Assembly: GCF_900112005.1 (NCBI RefSeq)
Contig: NZ_FOKK01000002.1
Coordinates: 124,001 to 188,000 of the forward strand
DNA from: Algoriphagus aquimarinus
GTDB taxonomy: Bacteria; Bacteroidota; Bacteroidia; Cytophagales; Cyclobacteriaceae
Direction: 5' to 3'
Length of the DNA: 64,000 nt
Shown here: positions 1,967 to 51,116 of the stretch, piece by piece
Layout: every line of letters starts with the position of its first letter
How positions within the stretch are numbered: position 1 is the first letter of the stretch
Made by a program: the position numbers and the translations under genes
Notes under the pieces: model-generated
What the model was told of the DNA's origin: nothing
Seen by the model: the letters and a program-made list of their open reading frames with translations, nothing else
The model's database searches: none

Positions 1967-2055
1967 CTAGTCCAACAGTTGAATAAAAGCCTTTTCCGGC
2001 TGAATTTGCATCACTTGGTGAAGAGGCCTATCTTATTTCCTTAAACCCTATAGCC

Positions 2056-3576
2056 ATGCCTGCTTTTTCAATTCTAGTGTTACTGCTTACACTTTTTTCA
2101 AGTCCTCAAAAACCTAAAGCATCTCAAGTAAAACAACCCAATATTCTTTTTTTAATAGCTGATGATTGGTCATTCCCACATGCAGGAGTCTATGGAGATC
2201 CGGTGGTGCGCACCCCAACATTCGATCGCTTGGCTGCCGAAGGGGCATTATTCACCAATGCATATACCGCTTCACCTTCCTGCTCACCTTCCCGTGCTGC
2301 TGTTCTATTAGGCAGGTATCCTCACCAGAATGAAGATGGAGGCAATCTCTGGTCAGAATTCCCAGCTCAATACCCTACGTATGTCAGCCTGTTAGAAAAA
2401 GATGGGTACTTCACAGGATCAACTCGAAAAGGCTGGGGACCAGGGGATTTTAAAGTTAGGGGAATGGAACATAATCCATCCGGCAAAACCTATGAGGATT
2501 TCAAATCTTTTCTAGCCGAAAAACCCAAAGATCAGGCATTCACCTTCTGGTTTGGGAGCACAGACCCTCATCGTGAATATGTCCCTAATACAGGCATACA
2601 AACCGGGATGGACTTGGACGATGTGGTAGTTCCAGGCTTTTTCCCTGATGTGGAATGTGTCAGAAATGATATTCTAGACTACTATTTTGAGATAGAAAGA
2701 TTCGATAGAGAAAGTGGTCAACTGATCAAAATGCTAGAGGAAGCTGGCGAACTTGACAATACAATCATCGTCATGACAAGCGATAACGGTATGCCTTTTC
2801 CACGAGCAAAAGCTAATTTATACGACTACGGCACTAGGATGCCGCTTGTGATCAGATGGCCGCAAAAAGTAAAAGAAGGAACCGTCATCGATGACTTTGT
2901 GAATTTTGTAGACTTTGCTCCGAGCTTTGTAGAAGCGGCAGGATTAAGTCCAGAAGGAATGTCTGGACAATCACTATGGCCTCTGTTGGCGGGTGAAAAA
3001 CAAAACCGGGAACAGGTTTATTTGGAGCGGGAGCGCCATGCAAATGTGAGAAAAGGCGACCTCTCTTATCCTATGCGAGCTGTCAGAGATCATCAATACC
3101 TATATATCAGAAATATGATGCCTGAACGAAATCCTGCCGGAGACCCCACTGTTCACCAATCCGTGGGTCAATATGGAGATATCGACAATTCCATCACCAA
3201 GTACCTGATCATGAGTTTGGAAGGAAAGTCCAAAGTAGGGTCACCTGATTACTTCAAATTAGCATTTGACAAAAGACCACAAGAGGAGCTCTACGATGTA
3301 ATTAAAGACCCCTACCAACTGCATAATTTGGCTGGAGACAAAACCTATGCAACTGTCAAAGACCAAATGAGGAAAAACCTGCAAAGCTGGATGACAGAAA
3401 CCGGAGACTTGAGAGCCAGCGATCCCCGTTCCTTGTATTGGGATGAAGTCCGGTACACTCCCAATTATCAAATGAAAGATTTCGATTACAAGAAAGGCAT
3501 AGAAGATTACAAGATTAAGCCTCCTTTTGGAAAATATGCAAAAGAAGGAATTCCCTGCCTCGACATAATACCTTAA
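2056..3576 (+). CDS. Sulfatase of the alkaline phosphatase superfamily, secreted
   Basis: The protein has 506 residues and probably hydrolyses sulfate esters or N-sulfates of sugars in the periplasm or outside the cell. A hydrophobic N-terminus (residues 1-17) looks like a signal peptide. The core begins at NILFLIADDW, where D36 and D37 are metal ligands. The Cys-type motif CSPSR (residues 76-80, followed by AAVLLGRYP) contains the cysteine that family members convert to formylglycine. A later TSDNGMPFPRAK supplies further metal-site residues. Similarity of layout to N-sulfoglucosamine sulfohydrolase-type enzymes is inferred, and the substrate cannot be read from sequence. It lies 89 nt after the kinase gene and before an SDR gene on the same strand. 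No sulfatase-maturing enzyme is in the window. Confidence 0.92.
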   Translation: MPAFSILVLLLTLFSSPQKPKASQVKQPNILFLIADDWSFPHAGVYGDPVVRTPTFDRLAAEGALFTNAYTASPSCSPSRAAVLLGRYPHQNEDGGNLWSEFPAQYPTYVSLLEKDGYFTGSTRKGWGPGDFKVRGMEHNPSGKTYEDFKSFLAEKPKDQAFTFWFGSTDPHREYVPNTGIQTGMDLDDVVVPGFFPDVECVRNDILDYYFEIERFDRESGQLIKMLEEAGELDNTIIVMTSDNGMPFPRAKANLYDYGTRMPLVIRWPQKVKEGTVIDDFVNFVDFAPSFVEAAGLSPEGMSGQSLWPLLAGEKQNREQVYLERERHANVRKGDLSYPMRAVRDHQYLYIRNMMPERNPAGDPTVHQSVGQYGDIDNSITKYLIMSLEGKSKVGSPDYFKLAFDKRPQEELYDVIKDPYQLHNLAGDKTYATVKDQMRKNLQSWMTETGDLRASDPRSLYWDEVRYTPNYQMKDFDYKKGIEDYKIKPPFGKYAKEGIPCLDIIP

Positions 3577-3655
3577 TTAAGAACTTGCACAAGGTTTAGA
3601 CTAAATTCAAATCCTCAGCTCGAGTCTTTTACGCATTTCTATTAAAACCAATACA

Positions 3656-4414
3656 ATGAGATTGCACCAAAAAACAGCCATCATAACTGGTGCTACCAGT
3701 GGCATGGGAAAAGCCATGGCCGAACGTTTTGTCAGCGAAGGAGCTTCCGTAATTTTGAGCGGGCGTGACGAGCTTCGAGGTAGGGAGTTAGAAAAAAAAC
3801 TGATTCAAAAGGGCGGAAAGGCAGTTTTCATTGCAGGCGACATTTCTCAAATAGCAGTAAATGAAACGTTGGTTAGGGAGGCTGTTCAAAATTTCGGAAA
3901 GCTGGATATTGTCGTCACAAATGCTGGAAAATTAGGATTGGGATCGGTGACGGACATTTCCTTTGAAGAATGGAATGAAACCATAAGTGCTAATCTGACC
4001 TCCGTGTTTTACCTAAGTAGGTTTGCGATTCCTGAAATGCAGAAAAATGGCAAGGGAGTCATTCTCGCAAACAGTTCGATTGCAGCATTTAAAAGTTTTC
4101 CCAAACATGCAGCCTATTGCGCTAGCAAAGCAGCCTTGGTTGCCTTGGTGAAAGAAATGGCATTGGATTACGGCCCCACGATCCGTGTGAACACAATTTG
4201 CCCCGGTCCGGTCGATACACCTATGATTTGGGATTCAGCCAAAGCCTTTGATCATCCTGACACCATCGTGCAGCAAACGGCCAACAATACGATGATGAAG
4301 CGACTTGGGAATCCCGAAGATATTGCTTCACTGGCCTTGTTTCTCGTTTCCGATGAAGCATCATGGATTACAGGTTCTGCCTATACGATTGATGGTGGGA
4401 TTTTGGTTAAATAA
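3656..4414 (+). CDS. SDR-family NAD(P)-dependent oxidoreductase
   Basis: This 252-residue classical short-chain dehydrogenase has the dinucleotide motif TGATSGMG at residues 11-18, NAG at about 89-91, a catalytic Ser near 140 and YCASK (Y154, K158). The C-terminal SDEASWITGSAYTIDGG is typical of the family. It should oxidise or reduce an alcohol/carbonyl pair using NAD(P)(H) in the cytoplasm. The substrate is unknown. It follows the sulfatase by 79 nt on the same strand, so a link to sugar breakdown is possible but unproven. Confidence 0.9.
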   Translation: MRLHQKTAIITGATSGMGKAMAERFVSEGASVILSGRDELRGRELEKKLIQKGGKAVFIAGDISQIAVNETLVREAVQNFGKLDIVVTNAGKLGLGSVTDISFEEWNETISANLTSVFYLSRFAIPEMQKNGKGVILANSSIAAFKSFPKHAAYCASKAALVALVKEMALDYGPTIRVNTICPGPVDTPMIWDSAKAFDHPDTIVQQTANNTMMKRLGNPEDIASLALFLVSDEASWITGSAYTIDGGILVK

Positions 4415-4806
4415 TAGCTTCGCTTGAATAGGCTGCACGAAGACATTTATAAAAAAATACCTTCTCATTATTCTAGCTACTTTTCGCGCTTCCTTTTTAA
4501 ATAAAAAATAGGCTCCTCGATAAATACAATCTTGAAGCCTGATCCATGCATTCCGAGTATGTCCACAGGCGTGAATAACTAGGTGATAACTGCTCGAAAC
4601 CGTTAAGTTCCGAGCATTATCAATGTAAAACAGCGTTAGTTTTAATTGGTAATAATGTGAGGATACATGATCCTATTAATTTTTAGAAATGATTCGAAAT
4701 TGTGCTTTCCCTGATCCTAAATGAGCTAGTTCCTCATTCACTGAGACAATGGGAAGTATGTGCTGGTTATATTTTTATGATAATCAGTTGAAATGTAAAG
4801 CTGAAT
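4415..4806. other. 392-nt gap between convergent genes
   Basis: The stretch separates the SDR gene (+) from the DUF418 gene (-). No reading frame, RNA gene or usual terminator with a U-tract was recognised. The only ordered element seen is the inverted repeat listed at 4585-4621. Confidence 0.6.
4585..4621. repeat. Inverted repeat in convergent gap
   Basis: The arms GATAACTGCTCG and CGAGCATTATC pair over 11 bp with one bulged C and a 14-nt loop. There is no U-tract, so an intrinsic terminator is uncertain. It could limit read-through between the two convergent genes. Confidence 0.45.
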
Positions 4807-6123
4807 CTAAAGTGTCTGCACGGGGAGTTTTCGGAAGCCATGGACTTTGCCATAGCTCAGGTTTCTCCAAAGCCATTCGGCTGGACCGTAATGAAAATAG
4901 CGAAGCCAGATTGGGCTAAGGATGAGCTGAAAAATCCAAATACCAAACACCACATAGAGTAGTTCATAGCGCTGAAGCTTGCCAAACATTCCAAAACCTA
5001 CTCCGGTAAATATGATCATACAGATGACCGAATGCATCAAATAATTGGTCAGCGCCATCTTGCCGACAGCCGCTATGCTGGACTTCAGCCAGCCTAGAAT
5101 TGGAGCTTTGCAAAAAAGCATAATCAGACCTACATGGCCCATGGCGACAAAAAGCCGTCCCCAGTAATAGGTAATCATTGATTTGCTCTTGGAAAGGAGC
5201 GAAAAGTTATCTTCCGAGATCAGATTCAACTCGTAGTAATTGATGAGCAACCCAATGGTGTAACCAATCCCTGCCATAGCGAGATAGAACGAATTTGCCT
5301 TTTCACCCGTCAATACTCCCAATTTGAATAGCGCCATCCCTATCAGCATCATACTCAGCACGTCCCAGACATCGTATTTGTAAGGCCAAAGCGTATCAGA
5401 ATCAAAATTTTCAGGAGCTAAATGAGCGACAACTTTGAAATACCCTTTGTGCATCTCGTCATTGTATTCTTGGATAGCCTCAGGACTCCTTTTTTCCTCA
5501 TACTTCTCCCATCTTGTTTTAGCAGATTTGAGCTCCTTGGTCAGTTCTTCTCCTTTGGATTCAACCACCTGCACTTCTTCCAATTCCGCTATCCATTTTT
5601 TAGTGTCGGTATAGTTTACATATAGCCAAAATGTGCCTATTGAAAACAAGACGATAGCAGTTGCAATCAAGAATTTGGGAGCCATGGATCTAAAGGAGTA
5701 GACCAAGAAACCCATCAAAGCATATTGATACAAAATCTCTCCAGTCCATAAGAGCAAGTAGCCATGGATCAACCCAAAGACTAATAGCCAAGTAATTCTT
5801 CTAAAGTAAATATCGGCCGCTTTGATCCCTGCTCCTTTTTTGAGCAAGCGATCTAAAAACATAAACATCCCGACTCCAAAAAGAAGGGAGAATAGGGCCC
5901 TCATAGTACCTTCAAAAAGCATATTGGTGGTCATCCATGTATAGAGATTGAGCCCAGTCGAGCCCCCTGTCACAGTAGGATCACTATAGGACTCGTAAAG
6001 TCCATAGCCATTGATATTCATCAGTAAAATCCCGCAAAGGACAATACCTCGCATTACATCAAGTGATAAAATTCTGTCGGATTGCTTGAGTGGCTTAAAC
6101 TCTTGAAAAGCAGATTCTGTCAT
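4807..6123 (-). CDS. DUF418 (YeiB-type) integral membrane protein
   Basis: The protein has 438 residues. Its N-terminus carries the family signature RILSLDVMRGIVLCGILLMN followed by about eight to ten membrane segments. The C-terminal DUF418 part includes GKMALTNYLMHSVI and ends in the usual WLRYFHYGPAEWLWRNLSYGK block. A charged soluble insert lies roughly at residues 175-235. The biochemical role of the family is not established; it is related to acyltransferase-like membrane proteins. It stands alone between two convergent or divergent gaps. Confidence 0.88.
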   Translation of the reverse strand: MTESAFQEFKPLKQSDRILSLDVMRGIVLCGILLMNINGYGLYESYSDPTVTGGSTGLNLYTWMTTNMLFEGTMRALFSLLFGVGMFMFLDRLLKKGAGIKAADIYFRRITWLLVFGLIHGYLLLWTGEILYQYALMGFLVYSFRSMAPKFLIATAIVLFSIGTFWLYVNYTDTKKWIAELEEVQVVESKGEELTKELKSAKTRWEKYEEKRSPEAIQEYNDEMHKGYFKVVAHLAPENFDSDTLWPYKYDVWDVLSMMLIGMALFKLGVLTGEKANSFYLAMAGIGYTIGLLINYYELNLISEDNFSLLSKSKSMITYYWGRLFVAMGHVGLIMLFCKAPILGWLKSSIAAVGKMALTNYLMHSVICMIIFTGVGFGMFGKLQRYELLYVVFGIWIFQLILSPIWLRYFHYGPAEWLWRNLSYGKVHGFRKLPVQTL

Positions 6124-6333
6124 AGCTTATCTAATCCCGAGAGTTGAAAAGTATTCACTTGTGGCTCAGGAGAATAATAAGCTATCCATTTTCTAATGGA
6201 GGCGAATAAGGTATTGGACTAATGCATATTAAAAGTGTCCAAGCTTAGACATAAATTTCCCAGTAGCATTTCTGCTGAGGCAAACCTGAAGTTGTATAAG
6301 GCTTTAAAAAAATATTATGATAGTGCTCGAAAT

Positions 6334-7965
6334 CTATTTCACTACTATCGATTCCGTAGAAGGCTCAAATCCTATTCGATGCGCCATCACATCAAGTGAA
6401 TCTCCAGCATTCATTTCAAAAGGAAACTGATAAACTGACCAAACGTCTGAAGCATTTTTCCTAAACCCAACCGATGCACCCTTTGTAGCTGAAGATAAAA
6501 ACACCTTCCCATCTTCATAGCGAACTTTTACAGGCTCAGTGATAGGCGCGTGATCCGCTCCTTTCCACCATTGATTTATCATTTCCATTTCTGGAATTGC
6601 GCCTAGATCACCAAAATCCTCTATCCATTTCAGATGCGCCGCTCGAAGCTCAGCCAGTTTATCCGCATAGTCAGGATTTCCAGCTAGGTTATTGAACTCG
6701 TATGGATCAGCCTTAGTATCATAAAGCTCCTCTTCTGGCTTGGATTCATCAAACCATCGCTCTTGATTCACATCCAACTTCCCTTCTTCGTGTAGCTCCA
6801 GTAGATGTACCATCAGTGGATTACTTAATCTAAAACGGATATTCTGATAGTTAGCTTTATCCGTCATGTAGTTCTTGATGTATTTGTATCGCCCATCACT
6901 TACTGCCCGCACTCTATCCACTTCTGAATCCATGCGATCTCGCGCAGCATAGATGTACTTTCTAGGTTCAGATTTTTGATTTCCCATAAATGCCTGCCCC
7001 TGCATATTATTGGGAATTTTCACTCCCGCTAGAGAAAGAACCGTCGGTCCAAAGTCCACAAAGCTCACCAACTGATCATCTATAGTCCCTGGTTTTATAA
7101 AAGGTGCTTTGATGAAAAGAGGAACTCGCAAACCTCTATCATACAACTCGCGCTTATAATAAGGCATTCCATCCCCATGATCTGAGTAATAGAAAATAAT
7201 TGTATTCTCATACAACCCATCATCTTTCAACTGCTGTAGGAGTTCACCCACCTGCGCATCAAAACGCATCACATTTGTAATAAATCGAGCCAAGGTCCTG
7301 CGCGTAATCGAGTCATCAGGATAAACAGGCGGCACCGTCACATCTGCTGGATCCACCAATAAATCCTCATTTTCCCTTGCCCACACCTGAGATTCGTGTG
7401 TAGTCGTGTAATTGAAAATGGAGAAAAATGGCTGGTTCGGATCTTTACGATTTCTCCAATGAGCTGTATTGCTACTCTCATCCCACATTGTTCCGGGTGC
7501 GACAAATTGAAAATCCTCTTTTACATTGTTACTGGTATAATAGCCCGCCATACGCAGGTATTCAGGATAGCCGTGCATCCCTTCAGGAATCATCGCTGAA
7601 TAAGACTTATGATTTGGCGGATAAGCAGACTCATTCCCTTTTGACATGCCGACTGTTCTCATATGCATCGCCCCGATAGAAGTCTGATAGGCACCTGTGA
7701 TCAATGCTGCTCTACTTGGTGCACAAACACCCGCTGTAGAAAAGGCATTTGTAAAAAGCACTCCAGTTTTTGCCAAAGAGTCCAACACCGGGGTTTTCCC
7801 TCCAGTACCTCCATATGCACCCAAATGCTCCGGTGACATATCCTCATTTACTATCCAGATAATATTAGGTCGCTCTGGATATTCTATTTCCGAGGGCGAA
7901 CTAGACTCCTTTTGACAGGAAAAAAACAAAAATGAACCAAGGCAAATGAAAAGAATACACTTCAT
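6334..7965 (-). CDS. Sulfatase lipoprotein with extra C-terminal domain
   Basis: This 543-residue protein begins with a lipoprotein signal (SFLFFSC, lipidated Cys17), so it should be membrane-anchored outside the cytoplasm. The sulfatase core shows NIIWIVNEDMSPEH (E41-D42 at the place of the usual DD), the Cys-type active site CAPSR (81-85) and YYSDHGDGMPYYKRELYDRG. The final 70 residues or so (from PVKVRYEDGK) form a separate beta-type domain resembling those appended to sugar hydrolases. It should need formylglycine maturation. It is divergent from the TIM-barrel gene at 8211, with a 245-nt shared upstream region. It is clearly different from the sulfatase at 2056, so the two are not a recent duplication. 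Confidence 0.92.
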   Translation of the reverse strand: MKCILFICLGSFLFFSCQKESSSPSEIEYPERPNIIWIVNEDMSPEHLGAYGGTGGKTPVLDSLAKTGVLFTNAFSTAGVCAPSRAALITGAYQTSIGAMHMRTVGMSKGNESAYPPNHKSYSAMIPEGMHGYPEYLRMAGYYTSNNVKEDFQFVAPGTMWDESSNTAHWRNRKDPNQPFFSIFNYTTTHESQVWARENEDLLVDPADVTVPPVYPDDSITRRTLARFITNVMRFDAQVGELLQQLKDDGLYENTIIFYYSDHGDGMPYYKRELYDRGLRVPLFIKAPFIKPGTIDDQLVSFVDFGPTVLSLAGVKIPNNMQGQAFMGNQKSEPRKYIYAARDRMDSEVDRVRAVSDGRYKYIKNYMTDKANYQNIRFRLSNPLMVHLLELHEEGKLDVNQERWFDESKPEEELYDTKADPYEFNNLAGNPDYADKLAELRAAHLKWIEDFGDLGAIPEMEMINQWWKGADHAPITEPVKVRYEDGKVFLSSATKGASVGFRKNASDVWSVYQFPFEMNAGDSLDVMAHRIGFEPSTESIVVK

Positions 7966-8210
7966 AGGTAGATGAGTTTGAGCAAATCAAGTTATTGATT
8001 TTACAATAAAAGATAAATGTGTGTAAATATCACCCTGACCTAGAGGTGTTAACCAATTTTCTGCTGTTTGGATTCGGTAAGTTTCTTTGGAATCAAGTTC
8101 AGCTTTGGTAACTTAAAAAGTCATATACTAACAATGAATCTTAGTCTTCAAAATAAGACTAAACCCAAGGTTTCTGAAATAACAGAAGAAACTCCTTTTA
8201 CATTATCAAC

Positions 8211-9152
8211 ATGAACAAAAGAAGAAATTTCCTGAAATCAGCTGGATTAGCTACAGCAGCAATCGGACTAGGAATGCCTCAAATGGCTTTTTCAATGAAG
8301 AAAGCTGCGCCACTTTTCAAAATCTCGCTTGCCGAATGGTCCTTGAATAAGCAACTGTTTGCGGGGAAAATGGATCACTTGGACTTCCCTATGCTTACTA
8401 AAAAAGCTGGGATAGAGGCAGTAGAATATGTAAACCAATTTTTCAAAGACAAAGCCAAAGACATGGCCTATCTGAAGGAAATGAAAACCCGAGCTGATGG
8501 TGAAGGAGTAAGATCTGTTCTAATCATGTGCGACGGTGAAGGGATGCTCGGTGCAGCTTCTCAAGAGGAGCGTACGCAAACAGTGGAGAATCACAAAAAA
8601 TGGGTAGAAGCAGCCAAGTTCTTAGGCTGTCATTCCATCCGTGTAAATGCCTACTCGGCTATTCCGTGGAGCACTTCTGAACAGGATTATAAAACATCCA
8701 GTGATCTTGCTAGTGCAGGCTTACATGAGCTTTGTGAATTTGCAGATGACTTTGATATCAATGTCTTGATCGAGAATCATGGTGGATTCTCCAGTAATGG
8801 GAAATGGCTTGCTGAGATGATCAATAAAGCCGATCATCGCCGAGCTGGGACTTTGCCTGATTTTGGGAATTTCAGAATCGCCAATGAAGATGGAAAAGCT
8901 ATTTCTTATGATTCCTATCGTGGGATAGATGAATTGATGCCTAGAGCAAAAGGTGTCAGTCTAAAACCAACAGTTTGGGACGACCAGGGTAATGAACATC
9001 CTCTTGATTATCCTAAGATGATGAAGCTTGTTTTAGCGCATGATTTCCATGAATACGTAGGAATTGAGCACGGTGAAGCAGGAAGAGAATGGGAAAGCAT
9101 CAAAGAAATCAGACAAGAGCTGGAAGCAGTAAGAAGAACTCTTGAAGCTTAA
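8211..9152 (+). CDS. Exported TIM-barrel sugar isomerase/epimerase-like protein
   Basis: The protein has 313 residues and belongs to the xylose isomerase-like TIM-barrel superfamily, close to hydroxypyruvate isomerase-like proteins of Bacteroidota. The N-terminus (KRRNFLKSAGLATAAIG) has a twin-arginine-like signal, suggesting export. Metal-site-type residues occur in NVLIENHGG and GTLPDFGNF, and near the C-terminus in YVGIEHGE. The exact reaction is unknown; an isomerisation or epimerisation of a sugar acid or ketose is the family expectation. The VOC gene starts only 11 nt downstream, so the two are probably co-transcribed. Confidence 0.86.
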   Translation: MNKRRNFLKSAGLATAAIGLGMPQMAFSMKKAAPLFKISLAEWSLNKQLFAGKMDHLDFPMLTKKAGIEAVEYVNQFFKDKAKDMAYLKEMKTRADGEGVRSVLIMCDGEGMLGAASQEERTQTVENHKKWVEAAKFLGCHSIRVNAYSAIPWSTSEQDYKTSSDLASAGLHELCEFADDFDINVLIENHGGFSSNGKWLAEMINKADHRRAGTLPDFGNFRIANEDGKAISYDSYRGIDELMPRAKGVSLKPTVWDDQGNEHPLDYPKMMKLVLAHDFHEYVGIEHGEAGREWESIKEIRQELEAVRRTLEA

Positions 9153-9163
9153 ATTATTTCAAA

Positions 9164-9550
9164 ATGAAAACTGAATTCCTCTGCACAGTGCCAGTGCTCC
9201 CGTCTCAAAACATAGCTCGAGACATAGATTGGTATTCACACAACTTTGGGTTCGTCAAAACCTTTGGAGATCATATGTATGCTGGCATGCGATTAGAAGA
9301 TATTGTGATCCATCTACAGTGGCATGCAGACACTGCTGCAGATCCTATTTTGGGAGGTTCGGTAGTGAGGATTTTTGTCAAAAATATTGAGCCTTATTTT
9401 GAATCTTTAGTAGTAAAAGGGGTTGTGAAATGTGATAAGCTAATCAAAAATACCCCTTGGGGCACTCATGAGTTTGGTTTATATGATTTGAACAACAATT
9501 CCATTTTCATAGTAGAAGACATAGAAACCTCGGCAGAAATAACTTCCTGA
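9164..9550 (+). CDS. VOC superfamily (glyoxalase/bleomycin-resistance-like) protein 1
   Basis: This small 128-residue protein has the beta-alpha-beta-beta-beta fold signature of the VOC superfamily: TVPVLPSQNIARDIDWYSHNF at the start, IVIHLQWH in the middle and the closing YDLNNNSIFIVED. It probably acts as a dimer. Whether it is an enzyme (lyase, dioxygenase) or a binding protein cannot be told. It is translationally close (11 nt) to the TIM-barrel gene. Its last codons are included in the 148-bp direct repeat described at 9501. Confidence 0.8.
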   Translation: MKTEFLCTVPVLPSQNIARDIDWYSHNFGFVKTFGDHMYAGMRLEDIVIHLQWHADTAADPILGGSVVRIFVKNIEPYFESLVVKGVVKCDKLIKNTPWGTHEFGLYDLNNNSIFIVEDIETSAEITS

Positions 9551-9648
9551 TTTGGACTCTAGGGTTTCAAATCCCTTTTGCTTTTCCCTACTTGCAACAA
9601 TGAAACAACAACTAGGACAAATCGCGATTTTGGTAAGAGATTACGATG
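9501..9648. repeat. Left copy of imperfect direct repeat flanking a gene cassette
   Basis: These 148 bp align without a gap to 11353-11500 with 27 mismatches by hand count (about 82% identity). The repeat spans the last codons of VOC gene 1, the intergenic region and the first 16 codons of a second VOC gene. Similarity stops just after GATTACGATG. The left copy therefore marks one edge of a 1.7-kb insertion between two adjacent VOC genes. Confidence 0.85.
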
Positions 9649-9665
9649 GGCCTATAAATCCTTAA
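9600..9665 (+). pseudogene. 5' fragment of a VOC gene, cut off after 16 codons
   Basis: The frame MKQQLGQIAILVRDYD is identical in protein sequence to the first 16 residues of the intact VOC protein at 11452. It then runs into unrelated sequence and a stop at 9663. The preceding CTTGCAACA is also shared. This is the amputated start of a duplicated gene and is too short to be functional. Confidence 0.85.
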
Positions 9666-9710
9666 ACCAAAGTTTCCGGCATGTATTAACAGCATTCCGA
9701 ATTGTCTACT

Positions 9711-10865
9711 ATGAAATCAGCGTTTCAAATCATTACCATAACAGTGCTCTTGTCCCTCTTTTATGCATGCACTACTACTCCTGAAAGTGCCAAAAAGTCG
9801 CTTATGGATTTTCATGTCGAAGAGGTAACTATCCCCATCGGACCTGAAATTGATCCCTATACCATGGCGCTCCAATATGTTGATGGTGAATTGTTATGGC
9901 ATAATAAAAACCGAAGTACAATCTCAAAAATCGACCTAAAAACTAAACAGGTTTCGGAGTATTATCATTATCAAGAAGAGGGGCCAATGGGAGTTGGTAA
10001 TATTGTGGGCTTTTATGTGTTCAATCAAAACAAAATAGCCTTTCCTACTTCTGGAAGACGGGTATCTATTTATTATATGGATACAGATAAAGTGGACCGT
10101 ATTAAACTGAGTGACTTTAGCCCAGATTATACAGACACCAGATCTAGGACACGTTATACCTCCACATTTCATTTTTGGAATAATAAATTAGTCTTGCCAC
10201 AAACTGTATATTTCAGATATACCCATGAAATTAATGAGGATTTTCTCAAGAATAAAAATCCTTTCTTAATACTGAATTTGGATAATTCTAAAGTGGAAGA
10301 GAGCCCCTATAGACTTTCCAAATCCAATTTTGGAGAAAACTTTAATACACCTAAGATATTATTAGATCATAAAGGAAAGTATTCCTATATCTTACCTTTT
10401 TACTCCAATCAATTGGATGTATTCGATTTAAATAATAGTAACACCAAGTCTTATCAATTACAGACTAATTTAATTCCGGATTTTACCAATAAATTTTTCT
10501 TGCATGAGGAAAGGGTAAATCAATCTTTGGAGGAAAATATGTCAGAATACTTATCCGAGCCTCAAAACCTAGGAATTTTAGTAGATCCCTTCAAAAATTT
10601 GCTTTATCGAATGACCTGGCCAGGAACAGGAGTTCCTGAAGGTGTTTCTTCCATGAAGTTCGTTGCGACTCCCTCCCATTTTATTCTCAGCGTGTATGAT
10701 GAAAATTTTGATTTGAAATATGAATTCGAACTCCCAGAATATGAGTATATCCCGCATCAGTACTTCGTTTCGGAAGCAGGTCTTCACCTGTTTGGAAACC
10801 ATCCCGATCACCCGGACTCCAAAGAAGATCAGCTCGTTATCCATACCTTTGATTTTTCTGATTAG
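9711..10865 (+). CDS. Putative lipoprotein, DUF4221-like beta-propeller type
   Basis: The ATG at 9711 is preferred over the TTG at 9702 because it gives a clean lipoprotein signal (MKSAFQIITITVLLSLFYAC, Cys20). The mature protein of about 365 residues is rich in beta-strand-like repeats (GELLWHNKNRSTISKIDL, NKIAFPTSGRRVSIYYM, GKYSYILPFYSNQLDVFDL), consistent with a propeller. The layout resembles the Bacteroidota DUF4221 family, whose function is unknown. The gene is AT-rich: 31 of 120 bases at 10381-10500 are G or C, against 50 of 120 at 8701-8820. It forms the first half of the cassette between the direct repeats, which suggests horizontal arrival. Confidence 0.75.
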   Translation: MKSAFQIITITVLLSLFYACTTTPESAKKSLMDFHVEEVTIPIGPEIDPYTMALQYVDGELLWHNKNRSTISKIDLKTKQVSEYYHYQEEGPMGVGNIVGFYVFNQNKIAFPTSGRRVSIYYMDTDKVDRIKLSDFSPDYTDTRSRTRYTSTFHFWNNKLVLPQTVYFRYTHEINEDFLKNKNPFLILNLDNSKVEESPYRLSKSNFGENFNTPKILLDHKGKYSYILPFYSNQLDVFDLNNSNTKSYQLQTNLIPDFTNKFFLHEERVNQSLEENMSEYLSEPQNLGILVDPFKNLLYRMTWPGTGVPEGVSSMKFVATPSHFILSVYDENFDLKYEFELPEYEYIPHQYFVSEAGLHLFGNHPDHPDSKEDQLVIHTFDFSD

Positions 10866-11211
10866 TCTGTTGATCGCTTGCACCAGTACCAAGCGAGAAG
10901 AATCTATCATGAAGTTCGCAGAGTTTTATGACCTGCCTTTGGAAGATTATAATCAATTAGTTTTCGTTCCAAATGACGGGTGTGGTTCCTGCATTCGAGA
11001 GGGTAAGGCTTATATCACTACTCATATTGATGATCCAGAAATCCTGCATATTTACGTCTCTAGGTTTCATAGTGATTTATCCTCTTTCAGGGACAAACCA
11101 AATTTTTTGCTAGACAAACAAATGAAAGCGTTGGATTTTGGGATAGTAACCACCGGTGCAATGATCTATGAGGTGAAAAAGGATTCTTTGTATATAATTC
11201 CTATACAATAA
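10792..11211 (+). CDS. Small putative lipoprotein with CGSC motif, overlapping the previous gene
   Basis: The frame is open from an ATG at 10720, but a convincing lipoprotein signal (KKISSLSIPLIFLISLLIAC) begins well inside it, so the TTG at 10792 is chosen; the true start is uncertain. The mature part is about 110 residues and has VFVPNDGCGSCIREG, a CxxC pair in a thioredoxin-like position, then IYVSRFHSD and a beta-rich end. The first codons overlap the 3' end of the preceding lipoprotein gene by 74 nt in another frame, which implies translational coupling. No function is recognised. A redox or metal-binding envelope protein working with its neighbour is only a guess. Confidence 0.62.
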   Translation: METIPITRTPKKISSLSIPLIFLISLLIACTSTKREESIMKFAEFYDLPLEDYNQLVFVPNDGCGSCIREGKAYITTHIDDPEILHIYVSRFHSDLSSFRDKPNFLLDKQMKALDFGIVTTGAMIYEVKKDSLYIIPIQ

Positions 11212-11352
11212 ATTCCCCTTTAAAAGACCCTGCTCTTCGAAACCCTTTATTTAGCCCGGATGTAATCTTGACATTCAATCAAAAGAATTGTAAACTTCAA
11301 CATACACCTTTCTTCCTAATCCTACGAATTACAAATCCTGAACAGAAGAAGG

Positions 11353-11500
11353 CCATTTTCATAGAAGAAGACATATCATCCTCAGCAGAAAAAACTTCAT
11401 GTAATAGCAAATAGGTTTTCAAATTACTTCAGCATTTTCCTACTTGCAACAATGAAACAACAACTTGGACAAATCGCGATTTTAGTTAGAGACTACGACG
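11353..11500. repeat. Right copy of imperfect direct repeat, with remnant VOC tail
   Basis: This is the partner of 9501-9648, at a constant offset of 1852 nt. Its left part can be read as KKAIFIEEDISSSAEKTS, clearly related to the C-terminus of VOC protein 1 (SIFIVEDIETSAEITS), but no gene body precedes it. Its right part is the start of the intact VOC gene 2. It marks the right edge of the cassette. Confidence 0.85.
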
Positions 11501-11838
11501 AGGCTATTGAATACTACACACAGAAGTTAGGTTTTGAACTGATAGAAGACACACATATCAGTGATGTAAAACGCTGGGTGCGCGTTTCTCCTCCAGGTTC
11601 CTCCTGCCAATTGCTCCTTGCAAAAGCAGCCGACGAGCTCCAGCGAAACCAAGTAGGCTTTCAAGCTGGTGGCAGAGTATTTCTGTTTTTGTATACTGAC
11701 GACTTCTACAGAGATTATCATAACTATACAGCCAAAGGCGTTGAATTCATCAGAGAACCTTCTGAAGAAGCTTTTGGTACAGTATCCGTTTTTAAGGATT
11801 TGTATGGTAATCTTTGGGATTTTATTGAAAGGAAATAA
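11452..11838 (+). CDS. VOC superfamily (glyoxalase/bleomycin-resistance-like) protein 2
   Basis: This 128-residue VOC protein has GQIAILVRDYDEAIEYYTQK at the start, a central GGRVFLFLYTDDF and the closing FKDLYGNLWDFIE. The final Glu and early residues at the usual metal-ligand positions suggest a metal-dependent fold, but the reaction is unknown. It is only distantly related to VOC protein 1. Its upstream region and first codons are duplicated at 9501-9648, so it was probably next to VOC gene 1 before the cassette arrived. Confidence 0.85.
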   Translation: MKQQLGQIAILVRDYDEAIEYYTQKLGFELIEDTHISDVKRWVRVSPPGSSCQLLLAKAADELQRNQVGFQAGGRVFLFLYTDDFYRDYHNYTAKGVEFIREPSEEAFGTVSVFKDLYGNLWDFIERK

Positions 11839-11990
11839 GGAATTGTAGGATGATCGATGTCAGTTGACCGATGTAGCTTTTTCGTAAATTTTAAGCAACT
11901 TCTAAGAAGTTCATCTTTCACTTTCATACCTCATGACCGAGTTATTCAAAACAATTCATAATTTTAAATTCACCCATTTTAAATTCCCCA

Positions 11991-12221
11991 TTGGAAACCC
12001 AACCCAATAACCCTCTTCACGGAATCAAACTCGCAGACATCGTTGCGCATCTAGTAGAATGCTATGGATGGGAAGAACTCGGCGAACGAATAACTATCCG
12101 CTGCTTTACGCATGACCCTTCGGTCAATTCAAGCTTGAAATTTCTTAGAAAAACTCCTTGGGCTAGAGAGCGAGTAGAAGGATTGTATTTGAAGTCTTTG
12201 CGTGATGCCAAAAAAGGTTAA
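11991..12221 (+). CDS. VF530 family (DUF2132) small DNA-binding-type protein
   Basis: The 76-residue protein matches the VF530 family over its full length: [20 protein letters not shown], then [15 protein letters not shown] and [17 protein letters not shown]. The start is TTG at 11991; it is chosen because the family begins with the same residues just before PNNPLHG and no ATG is available. The family has a known compact helical fold and is thought to bind DNA, but its role is not established. It is followed at once by a palindromic repeat. Confidence 0.85.
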
Positions 12222-12225
12222 TTAT

Positions 12226-12256
12226 AACCTTTGAGGTCTTCGAGACCTCGAAGGTT
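12226..12256. repeat. 31-nt palindromic element after the VF530 gene
   Basis: The arms AACCTTTGAGGTCT and AGACCTCGAAGGTT pair over 14 positions (one G-U in RNA) around a TCG loop. Palindromes of this AACCTTTGAGGTCT type recur between genes in many Bacteroidota genomes. It begins 4 nt after the VF530 stop codon and may also act as its terminator. Confidence 0.75.
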
Positions 12257-12476
12257 TTGATTGAATAGATTAGCTCCTATCGGAGTGGCTCCGCAAAGGC
12301 TCTTCTCCTTCAAACCCTATTTGGTTCAAGTCTCATGACTTGGACCTACCATAATGAAGTCATCAGACTTCTATTAAATAAGGCTAATGAAAAGGCAATC
12401 ACAAGGCTTCATTCACAGGACACAAGCCTGAATACTTTGCGCCAGAAAAACCTTCTGCGGTTAAAAAAAAGACAAT
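12257..12476. other. Rest of the 306-nt gap before dnaN
   Basis: Between the palindrome and the dnaN terminator no reading frame with family resemblance and no RNA gene was recognised. The whole gap from 12222 to 12527 holds only these two hairpins. Confidence 0.6.
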
Positions 12477-12507
12477 AAAAAAAACCCGAAGGAATCTCCG
12501 GGCTTTT
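12477..12507 (-). terminator. Intrinsic terminator of dnaN
   Basis: Read on the minus strand, GCCCGGAGATTCCTTCGGG forms a hairpin and is followed by eight U residues. It lies 20 nt beyond the dnaN stop codon. Confidence 0.8.
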
Positions 12508-12527
12508 AGTTTTATGGTCTGTGGTTG

Positions 12528-13652
12528 TTATACGTAGTTATTCAACATCACCGGCATTACTAGCATCAGGATGTCTTCATTTTCGTCTTGCTCAGCTGGA
12601 AGGATCAAACCTGCACGGTTAGGAGCAGAGAACTTCAAGCTTACTTGCTTGCAAGAAAGGTTATTCAGCATTTCTACCAAGAATTTCGCGTTGAATCCGA
12701 TTTCGATATCCTCTCCATCGTGCTCACATGAAAGTCTCTCATTCGCCTCATTAGAGAAATCAAGATCTTCAGCAGAAATCATCAATTCGCTACCAGTCAA
12801 TTTCAATCTTACCTGATGCGTAGTTTTATTCGCATAAATCGCAATACGACGAAGTGAGCTCAATAATTCTGAACGATCAATTGTCATGATATTAGGATTC
12901 TCCGCTGGGATTACGTTTTCGTAGTCTGGGAAACGCTCGTCGATCAAACGACAAATCATCTTTATGTTATTGAAGTTGAAATAAGCGTTTGACTGATTGA
13001 ATTCTACTGTCACCGGAAGATTTTCCGAAGGCAATGTTGACTTCAACAAGTTCAGAGCCTTACGCGGAATGATCAAAGTAGCTGCTTCTTGAGAAGCAAT
13101 ATCAACTCTTCTGTATCGAACCAATCTATGTCCGTCTGTAGCTACGAAAGTAGTGCTGGTAGGGCTTAAATTGATGTAAACACCCGTCATAGCTGGACGA
13201 AGCTCATCAGAACTAGTTGCAAAGATTGTATTGGAAACTGCAGAAGCAAGAACCTCGGTGGACATATCCACAGAAGTAGCATTACTTACAGTTGGTATTT
13301 TAGGGAAGTCAGTAGCATTCTCACCTGCCAGTCTATAGCGACCGTTGTCAGAGCTGATTTCTACTGCATAGGTATCATGATCAATGCTGAAAGTAACTGG
13401 CTGCTCAGGAAGATTTTTCAATGTCTCAATCAAAATCTTTGCAGGCACCGCGATATTCCCATCTTCTTTGGCCTCCACGCTGATTTCGGTGATCATAGAA
13501 GTCTGCAAATCAGATGCAGTAATGGTCAATAGACTCTCTTTGATCTCAAAAAGAAAATTTTCCAAAATTGGCACAACGGGATTGGTTGTCACCACACCGT
13601 TGATAGCCGAAAGCTGCTTTAATAAGGCAGAAGAGGAAACAATAAATTTCAT
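12528..13652 (-). CDS. dnaN: DNA polymerase III subunit beta (sliding clamp)
   Basis: The 374-residue length is right for the clamp. The protein begins MKFIVSSSALLKQLSAINGV and has the conserved TDGHRLVRY and ATSSDELRPAMTGVYINL blocks of the second domain, plus ERFPDYENVIP and the C-terminal LMLVMPVML. As a ring dimer it tethers DNA polymerase III to the template. It stands alone with its own terminator, not in a dnaA-dnaN-recF operon, which is usual in Bacteroidota. The gliding operon upstream is 120 nt away on the same strand. Confidence 0.97.
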   Translation of the reverse strand: MKFIVSSSALLKQLSAINGVVTTNPVVPILENFLFEIKESLLTITASDLQTSMITEISVEAKEDGNIAVPAKILIETLKNLPEQPVTFSIDHDTYAVEISSDNGRYRLAGENATDFPKIPTVSNATSVDMSTEVLASAVSNTIFATSSDELRPAMTGVYINLSPTSTTFVATDGHRLVRYRRVDIASQEAATLIIPRKALNLLKSTLPSENLPVTVEFNQSNAYFNFNNIKMICRLIDERFPDYENVIPAENPNIMTIDRSELLSSLRRIAIYANKTTHQVRLKLTGSELMISAEDLDFSNEANERLSCEHDGEDIEIGFNAKFLVEMLNNLSCKQVSLKFSAPNRAGLILPAEQDENEDILMLVMPVMLNNYV

Positions 13653-13772
13653 ATCGTAGGGCTTAATTTATTTTTACTTTTGAATGGGGGTAAATTTATA
13701 AATAAATTCTAATTCGAACCGCCGTATAAATGATTCTCTCAAAAATTAATGAAATAGAAGTACAATAATCAG

Positions 13773-15461
13773 CTAGTTCAATGGCTTGCTGTATTTATTT
13801 CTGCGAATCCACCAGACAATACCACCTAAAAACAATAGCACAACCACTGGTGCCAACACGTTCAGTCCTTGCCAAAAGGTCTTTTGCTGTGCTACTTTCA
13901 TCTTATTCAATGGACGAATCTTGAAAGTTCGAGTACGGGAAGCAATTATCCCTTCTGGATCTCCAAGATACTGGACTAGATTTTTTAGGAAAAGCTTATT
14001 CGCAAAGGTCGTTTGGCTAAACGGATCCTCTCCCAAAGCTAAAGGAGCTCCATCTTCCAAATTAGTTTGTGCCTGAAAAACATCTCCATCTCCTATTACA
14101 ACCACCTTCCCTTGTCCACTTTCCTTAAAATCAGCTTTGGCAAAGCCATCTGGCAAAAATCTATTTTTATATAAGGAAGTAAATTCTCCTTCCAGCAAAT
14201 AGGCAAGAGGTAAGTTCTTCAATCCAAACTGCTTCACATCAGGCTGCTGATCCATATCTGCAAAAGCTACTCGAGCTGGAGCTGGCAAAATCCGAGACAA
14301 ATCTGAGCTAAAGATTAATGGCGTTTTGGTGACACCATCAGCCTTCACAGTATCCAAACTGCTCACAAAACGAAATTGAATTACATCAAGGCCTTTGGTA
14401 ATTGCATGATCCTGTACTCTTCCAGCTAGTACATAAAAAGGCCAAGGCAAAGGCACCAATTGTTGCTGATCGCCGAAATTTCCTCCCATCACAGGGAAAT
14501 AGCCGAAGTTCAAATCCTGAATTAAATCCTTGTTGACACGGATTCCATAGCGGAAAAGCAGATTATCCAAGCCCAAATCAATCGGCATAGCCAAGGTTCC
14601 TTGACCGCCTGCATTCTCTATTTCCACAGCGACTCCATCTAGTAGCACCACTAGGTTTCCTCCGCCCATGACATACTGATCAAGTAAGTAAACCTCGCGC
14701 TCAGTATAGCTTTCTTTTGGACCTTGGATAAAAATCATCTTAAAACCAGCCAAATCTGCTGGTTTCTCAGCTTGCTCAAGTGGGACCTTAAACAATTCAA
14801 AATCCCCATCCAATGCTTCTACCAACCCAAAGCCTTCATCTGAACTCATTTCCCCGTGGCCCATAATCATCGCGATGGATGAGGACTCAGGAGAAATCAA
14901 CTTACGAATAGCATTGCTCAACTCGAATTCCAGGTTTTCAATGGATTGATTAAGGATTTGATCCTGCCCCATTCCCCGATCGCCGCTTAGTACTAAAGCA
15001 CCTGTTTCATATTCGGCATTACTAACCAAAATCCCTGGGAAAATCAGCTGCTCTTGTTGACCAGAATTTCTCAGCACAGCTAAGTTTGTCGGATTGATCC
15101 CATAATCCGATAAGGTCAAAATAAAATCTACTCGTTCGCTTTCTGGCAAACTCAACGGATCAAAATAAGAATAGGTGATCTTTTCAGGACTGTATGAATT
15201 GAAGGTTCTAACTGTCTCTTCGATTGATTTCTGCAGACGTCGCATTTCGCCTGGAAGATTCTCCCCCATCAAAAGAATCTCCACATGAAGTGGTTCAGTA
15301 ATTCCAGTGAGCACTGCTTCCGTAGCAGGATGCAAGGAATAGCGATTCTCCTCTGTTAGGTCAATCCTAAAATTCAAAAATAACGCTAGTAAAACGAACA
15401 CTAGAATCCCTCCAAAAAGGAGCAACCAAGGCTTAGCGATATATAGAACCGACTTTTTCAT
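13773..15461 (-). CDS. gldG: Gliding-associated ABC transporter substrate-binding protein GldG
   Basis: The start at 15461 (MKKSVLYIAKPWLLLFGGIL) is chosen because its ATG overlaps the gldF stop by 4 nt (ATGA) and puts the membrane segment at the N-terminus; the frame is open 14 codons further upstream inside gldF. The 562-residue protein has an N-terminal membrane anchor, a large periplasmic domain of the ABC_transp_aux type (SSIAMIMGHGEMSSDEGFGL, VVLLDGVAVEIENAGGQG) and a C-terminal membrane segment (VLAPVVVLLFLGGIVWWIRR). GldA, GldF and GldG together support gliding motility in Bacteroidota; the transported substrate is unknown. Confidence 0.93.
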   Translation of the reverse strand: MKKSVLYIAKPWLLLFGGILVFVLLALFLNFRIDLTEENRYSLHPATEAVLTGITEPLHVEILLMGENLPGEMRRLQKSIEETVRTFNSYSPEKITYSYFDPLSLPESERVDFILTLSDYGINPTNLAVLRNSGQQEQLIFPGILVSNAEYETGALVLSGDRGMGQDQILNQSIENLEFELSNAIRKLISPESSSIAMIMGHGEMSSDEGFGLVEALDGDFELFKVPLEQAEKPADLAGFKMIFIQGPKESYTEREVYLLDQYVMGGGNLVVLLDGVAVEIENAGGQGTLAMPIDLGLDNLLFRYGIRVNKDLIQDLNFGYFPVMGGNFGDQQQLVPLPWPFYVLAGRVQDHAITKGLDVIQFRFVSSLDTVKADGVTKTPLIFSSDLSRILPAPARVAFADMDQQPDVKQFGLKNLPLAYLLEGEFTSLYKNRFLPDGFAKADFKESGQGKVVVIGDGDVFQAQTNLEDGAPLALGEDPFSQTTFANKLFLKNLVQYLGDPEGIIASRTRTFKIRPLNKMKVAQQKTFWQGLNVLAPVVVLLFLGGIVWWIRRNKYSKPLN

Positions 15462-17922: not shown

Positions 17923-18621
17923 TTACTTCTTTCCTTTAGGTCTCAACGGCCTACATTCCACATCTGCCACGAAGTAATTCGGATGCGTTTCCAGTGTTTG
18001 CACGATGGTCAACGCGACATCCTGAGGACGCATCATATTTTCATTGGCATTGGCGCCCTCTATCTCATCGAAGAAATTGGTTTGCGTAGATCCCGGATAG
18101 ATGGTAGAAACTTTGATCCCAAAATCCCGAAGCTCCATATACATGGAATGTGATATTCCGCGCACCGCATGTTTTGTCCCTACATATCCTGCAAAATTTG
18201 CTACGCCATTCAGTCCAGCGATAGAGGCAATGTTTAAAATATGTCCTTCATCAGCAGCTTTCATCGCTGGAACCAATCTCTTGCTCACGTAGAAAATCCC
18301 GTGGACATTGGTGTCAAACATGGCTTTCCAATCCTCAGAGGACATTTCTTCGAATTTTCCAGAAACACCAAACCCCGCATTATTTACTAGTATTCTGATA
18401 TCAGAACCCAGCTTACTTGTCGTCTCTTGAAAAGCTTTTTCTACTGACTCCTCTTTTGAAACATCACAGGTGAAAAAATGAAAGTTCTCATGCTGAAAAC
18501 CCGGATCATTTCTACCCCACCCCACAACGACAGTTCCTTTTTCAATTAACAATTTGACTACTTCCAGTCCTATTCCTTTACTCACGCCAGTTACTACAGC
18601 GATCTGATTATTGAGTTGCAT
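17923..18621 (-). CDS. SDR-family oxidoreductase
   Basis: The 232-residue classical SDR has TGVSKGIG at residues 12-19, NNAG in the fourth strand region, a catalytic Ser (NIASIAGL) and YVGTK as the Tyr-Lys pair. It ends with a Lys-rich tail (RPLRPKGKK). It resembles 3-oxoacyl-ACP-reductase-type SDRs of unknown substrate. It is divergent from the M20 hydrolase gene at 18769. Confidence 0.9.
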   Translation of the reverse strand: MQLNNQIAVVTGVSKGIGLEVVKLLIEKGTVVVGWGRNDPGFQHENFHFFTCDVSKEESVEKAFQETTSKLGSDIRILVNNAGFGVSGKFEEMSSEDWKAMFDTNVHGIFYVSKRLVPAMKAADEGHILNIASIAGLNGVANFAGYVGTKHAVRGISHSMYMELRDFGIKVSTIYPGSTQTNFFDEIEGANANENMMRPQDVALTIVQTLETHPNYFVADVECRPLRPKGKK

Positions 18622-50148: not shown

Positions 50149-50460
50149 TTAGAGTAACGGCATCTTATCTTCTTCAGAAAGTTGAATTTCCAAACCTCCG
50201 ATTTTTGAAGCCACAAAATTATAGACTATTGCCCCTAATGCCCCTACTATAAAACCTATGATTCCATACAAAATCGGGAAGACAATAGCCATTCCAACAC
50301 CTAATCCTAGGCCATAAGAATACATTTCATTCCCTAAGAGTCCTGAAAATATGGAAAAGAAAAGCGCATAAAATATTCCAATCACAAAGCCTAAACCACC
50401 AAGTGTCAAGCCGTAAATTTTTGCTGCGGAAGAAATTCCGATTTTTTCAATTTTTACCAT
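50149..50460 (-). CDS. Small membrane protein, tandem paralog A
   Basis: The 103-residue protein has a soluble N-terminus (MVKIEKIGISSAAKIYGLTL), a hydrophobic stretch about residues 20-43, and a second hydrophobic region about 50-88 probably forming two helices, then a short acidic tail (QLSEEDKMPLL). No family is firmly recognised. It is the downstream copy of a pair with the gene at 50749, about three-quarters identical in protein sequence by eye. Confidence 0.75.
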   Translation of the reverse strand: MVKIEKIGISSAAKIYGLTLGGLGFVIGIFYALFFSIFSGLLGNEMYSYGLGLGVGMAIVFPILYGIIGFIVGALGAIVYNFVASKIGGLEIQLSEEDKMPLL

Positions 50461-50526
50461 TTGCTTTTAGTTTAATGTGAATTCGACCAGTTTTAATAGA
50501 CATCAAAATATTGAAAAATTAAGCAT

Positions 50527-50554
50527 AAAAAAAGCGCACCAGTAAAGTGTGCTT
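50527..50554 (-). terminator. Terminator of paralog B
   Basis: AAGCGCAC and GTGTGCTT pair with one G-U, followed on the minus strand by a U-tract. It lies about 195 nt after the stop codon of the gene at 50749 and about 70 nt before the start of paralog A. A near copy exists at 51117-51143. Confidence 0.65.
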
Positions 50555-50748
50555 GTGAAATTGGCGAAGAAAAATCACTTAGTCATCCTTCTCAGCATGG
50601 CAAAAAGAACTCACAAATAGATCTATTTAGCTCAAGACTTCAGTTTTGGACCTATCGCAATTTACGCTCTTGGCCTACTTTTCTATGAGATATGTTTCAA
50701 CGTAATTCTTTATAGTTGGAGCACACGCTATAATCCTCATTTATCTTT

Positions 50749-51060: not shown

Positions 51061-51116
51061 TTGGTTAAAAGTTTAGTGTGAGATATACTTCCTCAAAATA
51101 TTAAAAAATTAGGCAT

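Follow-up and report, generated by a model that had tools for sequence, protein, structure and literature searches.

A lipoprotein cassette between duplicated VOC gene junctions in Algoriphagus is probably an old insertion passed between species

Bacteria exchange alleles by homologous recombination in conserved genes that flank a variable block. Direct copies of a target on both sides of an insert are the product of Campbell-type integration, in which a circular molecule enters the chromosome and the insert ends up between two direct target copies, and one event, such as template switching, can create an insertion together with a duplication of the adjoining sequence. The locus presented in this study lies in a stretch of 64,000 nucleotides (the window; contig NZ_FOKK01000002.1, positions 124,001 to 188,000 of the forward strand, assembly GCF_900112005.1 of Algoriphagus aquimarinus). 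Two genes of the VOC family (VOC1 and VOC2) are separated there by a cassette of lipoprotein genes, which is bordered by two diverged direct copies of the VOC1-VOC2 junction. The cassette is a true old insertion with duplicated edges that is shared with A. locisalis and was probably passed between species by ordinary recombination. We favour, with a probability of about 0.58, a history in which a ready-made cassette allele, formed once by insertion with a duplicated target, was later exchanged between species by recombination in its flanks. The original prediction, made from the letters of the window, had proposed a Campbell-like single crossover with a related but diverged DNA; this reading is not supported for the lineage of the window.

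The duplicated junction and its relatives

Re-alignment of the two copies reproduced the 148-bp repeat as first described, with its content, without gaps and with mismatches at 27 of 148 bases (9501-9648 and 11353-11500). The similarity of the two stretches is far above chance (blastn E value, 5.6e-37), and a repeat finder stretches the direct repeat to 162 nt at 80% identity (9494-9655 and 11346-11507). With an 11-base seed, only three families of direct repeats of at least 60 nt were found in the window, i.e., the VOC junction repeat and two parts of another. The left copy consists of the VOC1 tail, the spacer, and a truncated VOC2 head, and the right copy consists of a body-less VOC1 tail, the spacer, and the head of the intact VOC2; both VOC genes are thus left whole by the duplication. 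The repeat proper stops at approximately 9648, as the window, starting at approximately 9645-9649, matches the end of a peptide gene in A. locisalis and in G064, another Algoriphagus genome. Between the copies lie two lipoprotein genes, one of the DUF4221 family and one small, and part of a palindromic repeat.

The genus set comprises 72 genomes, including the window's own. The search with the VOC2 protein leads to Algoriphagus genomes, and 57 of the 71 others gave a locus around VOC2; the remaining 14 comprise 3 in which a VOC2 match gave no locus (G006, G032, and G029, with a fragment in the last) and 11 without a match. In 11 of the 57 loci, a cassette-free VOC1 is located directly upstream of VOC2 with a gap of 32 to 309 bases (in G021 and G019, only part of VOC1 was matched), which establishes the cassette as an insertion, as had been claimed. 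These empty sites include that of A. aquimarinus G028, the genome meant by this species name below. A single locus, that of A. locisalis (G071), carries the cassette, and in the other 45 VOC1 was not found in the upstream DNA examined (at most approximately 1.5 kb and clearly shorter in four).

In A. locisalis, the cassette is located between the same genes and the same two junction copies (positions 2706-2843 and 4895-5032 of locus L068; 87% identical), extends further left, and keeps the remains of a short exported peptide gene, which is apparently frame-shifted. In G064, an intact gene of this kind precedes a related DUF4221 gene: positions 9645-11169 of the window align with 1463-2987 of L170, where the peptide open reading frame occupies 1256-1486, and in A. 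locisalis the corresponding limit is position 3220 of L068. The 76-residue peptide of G064 matched no Pfam or NCBIfam family. The window has lost the exported-peptide gene, the final bases of which follow the VOC2 stub at approximately 9649. The small lipoprotein was matched in 7 of the 72 genomes, its own included, and three of these matches are weak (24-27%); the match in A. locisalis is at the VOC site, and those in G064 and G063 (72-74%) are on contigs other than that of VOC2. The original prediction had suggested looking in relatives for an empty site and for the cassette elsewhere; empty sites and, at other sites, relatives of the cassette were found.

Ancestry and origin of the cassette allele

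By sequence identity, A. aquimarinus is the nearest relative of the window among the genomes compared, because its dnaN is 97% identical, versus 89-90% in the next five (including A. chordae, A. yeomjeoni, A. locisalis, and A. winogradskyi), and because the stretches around the locus are mostly 87-92% identical to it (80-84% beside VOC2), versus mostly 71-87% outside dnaN in the four species named. The VOC1-VOC2 spacers fall, by eye in the alignment, into three types. All four junction copies of the window and A. locisalis are of type A, as is the empty site of A. winogradskyi; type B is found in A. aquimarinus, A. chordae, and A. yeomjeoni; and type C is found in four others. Over the whole spacer, types A and B differ at 43-58% of the sites and copies within type A at 16-34%. 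The typing is based on the VOC2-side half, in which type A copies show 0-7 differences among themselves over 26 sites (2-7 between the window copies and A. locisalis or A. winogradskyi) and 12-14 differences from type B over 25-26 sites.

The tree of the VOC1 body conflicts with that of the junction: the body of the window joins A. aquimarinus with a support of 99, and its junction (left copy, 75 columns) joins A. locisalis and A. winogradskyi against the type B species with a support of 100. A scan of informative sites places the two putative switches between these ancestries inside homologous sequence. At the left switch, aquimarinus-like sites are 59 of 74 before and 4 of 28 after (p = 1.6e-9), and at the right switch, locisalis-like sites are 15 of 21 before and 14 of 60 after (p = 1.4e-4); for each, 0 of 500 permutations was as good. 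The two junction copies of the window are 74-75% identical to A. aquimarinus, versus a median of 91% for segments of 150 bases. As low as the two copies are 19 and 21 of the 908 segments, partly at the same positions and otherwise near 6200, 12100-12230, and 18080-18350, and the divergence is therefore not unique to the junction. The difference in ancestry between junction and flanks indicates that DNA from a related but diverged species was probably involved, and this part of the original prediction holds. Positions 18001-18500 and 11621-11760 of the window are closer to A. chordae than to A. aquimarinus and are further signs of interspecies exchange.

Of 56 sites in the VOC1 tail, only 2 distinguish the right copy of the window from that of A. 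locisalis, and these two copies group with a support of 99, whereas the other pairs among the four copies differ at 8-10 of the 56. Judged by these shared changes, the duplication is older than the sharing, and the structure was probably made once and then shared; the divergence of the copies need not stem from a diverged donor. The two copies of A. locisalis are identical across 67 bases ending in VOC2 and are joined in the tree of the spacer and VOC2 head (support, 70), which suggests gene conversion between them. The cassette may instead descend vertically from an old insertion in the common ancestor of the group, with losses in A. aquimarinus, A. yeomjeoni, A. chordae, and others through recombination between the repeats or replacement by type B. 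The cassettes of the window and A. locisalis have diverged to an extent similar to the genes beside them (79-83% identity), direct repeats permit clean excision, and the identical 67 bp beside VOC2 in A. locisalis are in line with this descent. However, several independent losses would be required, and excision should leave a type A spacer, whereas the three species named carry type B; we consider vertical descent conceivable but doubtful.

The exchange of a ready-made allele would comprise the following steps. An operon of a short exported peptide, the DUF4221 lipoprotein, and the small lipoprotein, ending in the piece of palindromic repeat, would have entered the VOC1-VOC2 junction once, in an Algoriphagus whose spacer was of type A. 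Approximately 150 bp of the target would have been duplicated in the same event; the resulting structure is common to both species, and the single step is the presumed part. The joining may have been illegitimate, e.g., by the fill-in of a staggered break or by replication template switching. The complete allele, i.e., the cassette with both copies, would then have moved between species when the VOC genes on either side recombined homologously; an exchange of this kind, of which the switch points are the trace, may have brought it into the lineage of the window. Later, the copies would have diverged and, in A. locisalis, been partly homogenised, and the window would have lost the peptide gene. 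Any origin needs two non-homologous joins, so one duplicative event is the simplest; that the first insertion was a single duplicative illegitimate event is a guess.

Several observations weigh against this history. The junction is short, with a spacer of approximately 50 bp and 75 columns in the junction tree, and in its VOC1-side spacer half the window's right copy is about as far from type A (8-10 of 24 sites differ) as from A. aquimarinus or A. chordae (9-11 of 24). Separate trees of the repeat copies, as the original prediction had proposed, agree with a common origin of the right copies for the VOC1 tail only; the tree of the spacer and VOC2 head places the right copy of the window with types B and C at a support of 72. 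In the tree of the VOC2 body, the window groups with A. chordae and not with A. aquimarinus (support, 93) because of the patch at approximately 11621-11760, whereas the first 180 bases of this body are A. aquimarinus-like; the locus thus has a mosaic structure with more than two parts. At the VOC site of A. locisalis, the DUF4221 gene groups with an array on another contig of its own genome (support, 85), and the cassette is therefore not a single, cleanly shared block. The identity to A. locisalis also varies, with 95% at 11180-11397 and 79-83% in the genes. Finally, no clear microhomology marks the first joins, and the direction of the exchange, which we take from the fact that type B is common to A. 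aquimarinus and two other species, could be reversed.

In a Campbell-like integration, a circular DNA with the cassette and its own diverged junction copy would have recombined once with the resident junction. Such a step yields a cassette between two direct copies and agrees with the cassette relatives at other sites in other Algoriphagus genomes and with the ambiguity between types of one half of the right spacer. However, A. locisalis already has the same duplication. A single crossover into a type B chromosome also predicts one B spacer, whereas no complete one is present, as the VOC2-side half is type A in both copies and type B in the sister A. aquimarinus. This argument against integration in the lineage of the window is strong but not complete, because the VOC1-side half of the right spacer is ambiguous. 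The switch points are approximately 85 bp apart in repeat coordinates (9512 versus 11448, which corresponds to 9596) and thus mark no common crossover. The DUF4221 protein had no match among 72,556 plasmid records and the small lipoprotein none among 50,697 phage records, where the source may be unsampled. The shared cassette with both copies and the twofold type A half-spacer also speak against the single crossover as the source of the 18% divergence between the copies, for which it had been invoked. Integration of this kind is possible as the first event in an ancestor; as the account of the locus, we regard it as quite unlikely.

The alternative given in the original prediction, duplication plus insertion, may still hold, and a version in two steps, in which the junction was duplicated in tandem first and the operon inserted between the copies later, accounts equally well for the anatomy; the two steps are not datable here. 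That the junction does gain inserts is indicated by A. antarcticus, in which a 40-bp piece of type B spacer (positions 4852-4891 of L071; 82.5% identical to A. aquimarinus; E value, 3e-7) ends 109 bp upstream of VOC2 with unrelated DNA between. With this other insert in A. antarcticus, the junction seems to have acquired DNA on more than one occasion. Neither of the two long empty spacers (309 bp in A. antarcticus and 253 bp in G018) matches the cassette beyond the VOC1 tail. A tandem junction without an insert, which the two steps would pass through, was not found in nine aligned empty-site sequences (of the other empty sites, only the spacers of A. antarcticus and G018 were aligned), and we consider the two-step origin unlikely.

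Two further ideas on the origin were rejected. A DUF4221 gene is not an ancestral neighbour of VOC2, as the DUF4221-like gene upstream of VOC2 in 10 of the 57 loci (A. locisalis apart) is only 21-35% identical and of opposite orientation and is thus a different gene. A general rule that DUF4221 genes insert with duplicated flanks is unsupported: among seven other stretches of the genome, chosen as the surroundings of single or paired DUF4221 matches, three have no direct repeat of at least 35 nt, and the remaining four have a tRNA-like pair (by eye), repeats approximately 1.1 kb apart that resemble tandem gene copies (two stretches), and two short unidentified families (one stretch). The DUF4221 array of A. 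locisalis has no flank repeat either (best E value, 0.42). In literature searches on Algoriphagus transfer, template switching, duplicated flanks, and REPINs, nothing on the VOC1-VOC2 locus came up.

Right border and cassette genes

The features of the locus are listed in Table 1. The right border of the cassette contains a piece of a dispersed palindromic repeat, which resembles three places in G066 (E values, 9e-9 to 2e-3), two in G085, and one in G035. The two matches in G085 share one orientation and flank, on either side, a gene for a REP-associated tyrosine transposase (RAYT; NF047646, E value 5.7e-30). In passages of PMC2817692 and PMC3733652, RAYT genes are described as standing between inverted repetitive extragenic palindromes (REPs) or long terminal inverted repeats (TIRs); the label REP/TIR-like is our own, as the described flanks are inverted and the G085 matches run in the same direction. 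A long hairpin is formed by one of the G066 copies (z = -3.3), whereas the piece in the window forms no such fold and is cut off at the join.

Table 1. Coordinates of the features of the VOC1-VOC2 locus in the window, and of a distant gene in other loci
Feature	Position	Strand	Basis
VOC gene 1, intact, 128 aa, glyoxalase/bleomycin-resistance-like	9164..9550	+	Open reading frame; body groups with A. aquimarinus
Left repeat copy: VOC1 tail, type A spacer, first 49 bases of VOC2	9501..9648	+	Repeat search, alignments
Putative left switch, A. aquimarinus-like to A. locisalis-like	9511..9514		Informative-site scan
Probable 3' remnant of lost small peptide gene, joined to VOC2 stub by deletion	9649..9665	+	Alignment to G064 and A. 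locisalis
DUF4221 lipoprotein gene, 384 aa	9711..10865	+	PF13970, E value 9.3e-20
Small lipoprotein gene, CGSC motif	10720..11211	+	Open reading frame; start codon uncertain; lipobox by eye near 10866-10881
Unusually conserved block	11180..11397	+	95% identical to A. locisalis versus 79-83% in surrounding genes
Piece of dispersed palindromic (REP/TIR-like) repeat	11219..11339	+	Similarity to repeats in G066, G085, G035
Right repeat copy: VOC1 tail without body, spacer (VOC2-side half type A, other half ambiguous), VOC2 head	11353..11500	+	Repeat search, alignments
Putative right switch back to A. aquimarinus-like	11447..11449		Informative-site scan
VOC gene 2, intact, 128 aa	11452..11838	+	PF00903, E value 1.4e-18
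Distant DUF4221-like gene upstream of VOC2, opposite orientation	L008, L010, L013, L021, L215, L216, L218, L219, L224, L229		Locus comparison

It is highly improbable that a RAYT/REP (IS200/IS605-like) transposition brought the operon in, with the palindromic repeat of the right border as its end. The kinship of this repeat with the elements around the RAYT gene of G085 is in favour of transposition, as are six matches to RAYT profiles in the window's genome, of which one is above the cut-off and contains a stop codon. Against it, neither the cassette of the window nor that of A. locisalis yielded a second copy of the element, the element is truncated at the join, and a passage of PMC2817692 states that the IS200/IS605 family makes no larger target duplications. 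The repeat piece is a hitch-hiker or a break point and no demonstrated vehicle. The cassette proteins matched no transposase profile (the only genes between the repeats are those of DUF4221 and the small lipoprotein); the statement that no transposase is present is thus true for the cassette, to which the resemblance of its right border to a RAYT-flanking repeat in another Algoriphagus has to be added. A microhomology at this border was also considered, i.e., TGAACA in the repeat and in VOC1 (by eye); it fits the join only with two added bases and was not counted.

The conserved block spans the end of the small lipoprotein gene, the repeat piece, and the dead VOC1 tail. It differs from A. locisalis at 11 of 218 positions (Fisher's p = 1e-9, with block limits picked after the profile was seen). 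RNA structure or a known RNA family does not account for the conservation, as the fold of the block has a z of -0.26 and no Rfam match was found in 9100-12000 at an E value of 0.5. One sigma-70-like pattern is located at 11268-11296, yet 9400-11600 has fewer such patterns than shuffled sequences (4 versus 7.4). A separate recent exchange of the block is possible. A further idea, which we hold to be very unlikely, is that the cassette, by virtue of its duplicated junction, is a self-contained allele fit for exchange, which would enter by recombination in the flanks, leave via its own repeats, and cycle through the genus at one site without an enzyme of its own, and which the conserved 218-bp border would help to keep as a promoter or recombination signal. 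Entry and a clean exit would be possible because each junction copy keeps one VOC gene whole.

The match of the cassette gene to PF13970 reaches 71.9 bits against a gathering cut-off of 23.4, which places it in the DUF4221 family; none of the papers searched contains the term DUF4221. The open reading frame of the small lipoprotein overlaps the DUF4221 gene in a different frame, and its product matched no Pfam or NCBIfam family, apart from one sub-threshold Pfam match; its structure model has a mean pLDDT of 38 and was not used. Between the window and A. locisalis, nonsynonymous (dN) and synonymous (dS) divergence are 0.14 and 0.93 for the DUF4221 gene and 0.06 and 1.2 for the small lipoprotein gene. 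As dN is well under dS for both, both genes are, on this comparative measure, maintained by selection. As to function, the sequence supports no more than an envelope lipoprotein pair, formerly accompanied by an exported peptide.

The cassette had been described as clearly AT-rich. Its lower G+C content is real (36.6% in 9649-11352 versus 40.7% in the whole window; 5 of 623 overlapping 1.7-kb segments are as low), but it is mild overall and ordinary for the DUF4221 genes of the genome. The cassette gene has 36.0%, within the range of 33.3-43.2% in the matched stretches of the other 19 DUF4221 matches, and the stretch of 26% lies within this gene; one other match contains a 120-base stretch equally low, at 25.8%. 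The composition scan proposed in the original prediction thus gave no foreign signature, and a foreign origin by base composition was rejected.

The genome of the window contains 20 DUF4221 matches in total, twelve of which form a tandem row on contig C35 (L060) at approximately 1000-14700. A second DUF4221 array is present in A. locisalis (positions 7333-11200 of L168), the units of which end with a small-lipoprotein signal peptide that runs into the start of the next gene. The VOC1 protein matched no Pfam family at an E value of 0.001, and its matches to NCBIfam bleomycin-binding models (best E value, 2.8e-7) are all below the cut-off. The xylose-isomerase-like gene before VOC1 (8211-9152) has no blastn match in the VOC2 surroundings examined of A. 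locisalis, A. yeomjeoni, A. winogradskyi, and A. boritolerans. Elsewhere in the window, 50155-51066 is a diverged tandem duplication with a unit of approximately 600 bp (72-77% identical), which lies within 1.2 kb between glycine dehydrogenase-like and lipoyl synthase-like genes (named by eye), where no open reading frame of at least 120 residues is present.

Comparison with known systems

The locus is a worked case of accessory lipoprotein genes that reach a fixed chromosomal site without a visible mobile element. It also advises caution, as an insert flanked by a diverged direct repeat does not have to stem from plasmid-like integration, and one relative sufficed to show that the duplication came before the sharing. 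Its right border is unexpectedly conserved, and for most readers the locus is ordinary bacterial genome evolution.

The likeness to RAYT/REPtron systems, as these are outlined in parts of PMC2817692 and PMC3733652, is confined to the kinship of the right-border repeat with copies that flank a RAYT gene in another Algoriphagus. Unlike IS200/IS605-RAYT elements, the cassette contains no transposase gene, its palindromic repeat is present at the right border only and truncated instead of forming ends on two sides, and approximately 150 bp of target are duplicated, where, in the portion of PMC2817692 concerned, the family makes none larger. Template-switching duplications with inserts, a topic of PMC5120786, PMC2518615, and PMC3161906, differ in that no diagnostic microhomology survives at this old event.

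Campbell-type integration shares with the locus the direct target copies on both sides of the insert. It would, however, produce one copy that passes from native to foreign and one that passes in reverse at a single shared switch point, whereas the switch points here are some 85 bp apart, the same non-native half-spacer occurs in both copies, and the structure recurs in a relative. As in allelic exchange, a divergent block is delimited by two switch points, which fall within or beside conserved genes in homologous sequence, the phylogenies of the VOC1 body and the junction conflict, and the alleles differ in gene content. Among the genomes compared, no donor nearer to the imported block than A. 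locisalis was found (79-83% identity in the cassette genes and 95% over 218 bp). What distinguishes the locus from ordinary allelic exchange is that the exchanged allele itself holds a duplicated junction with an insert.

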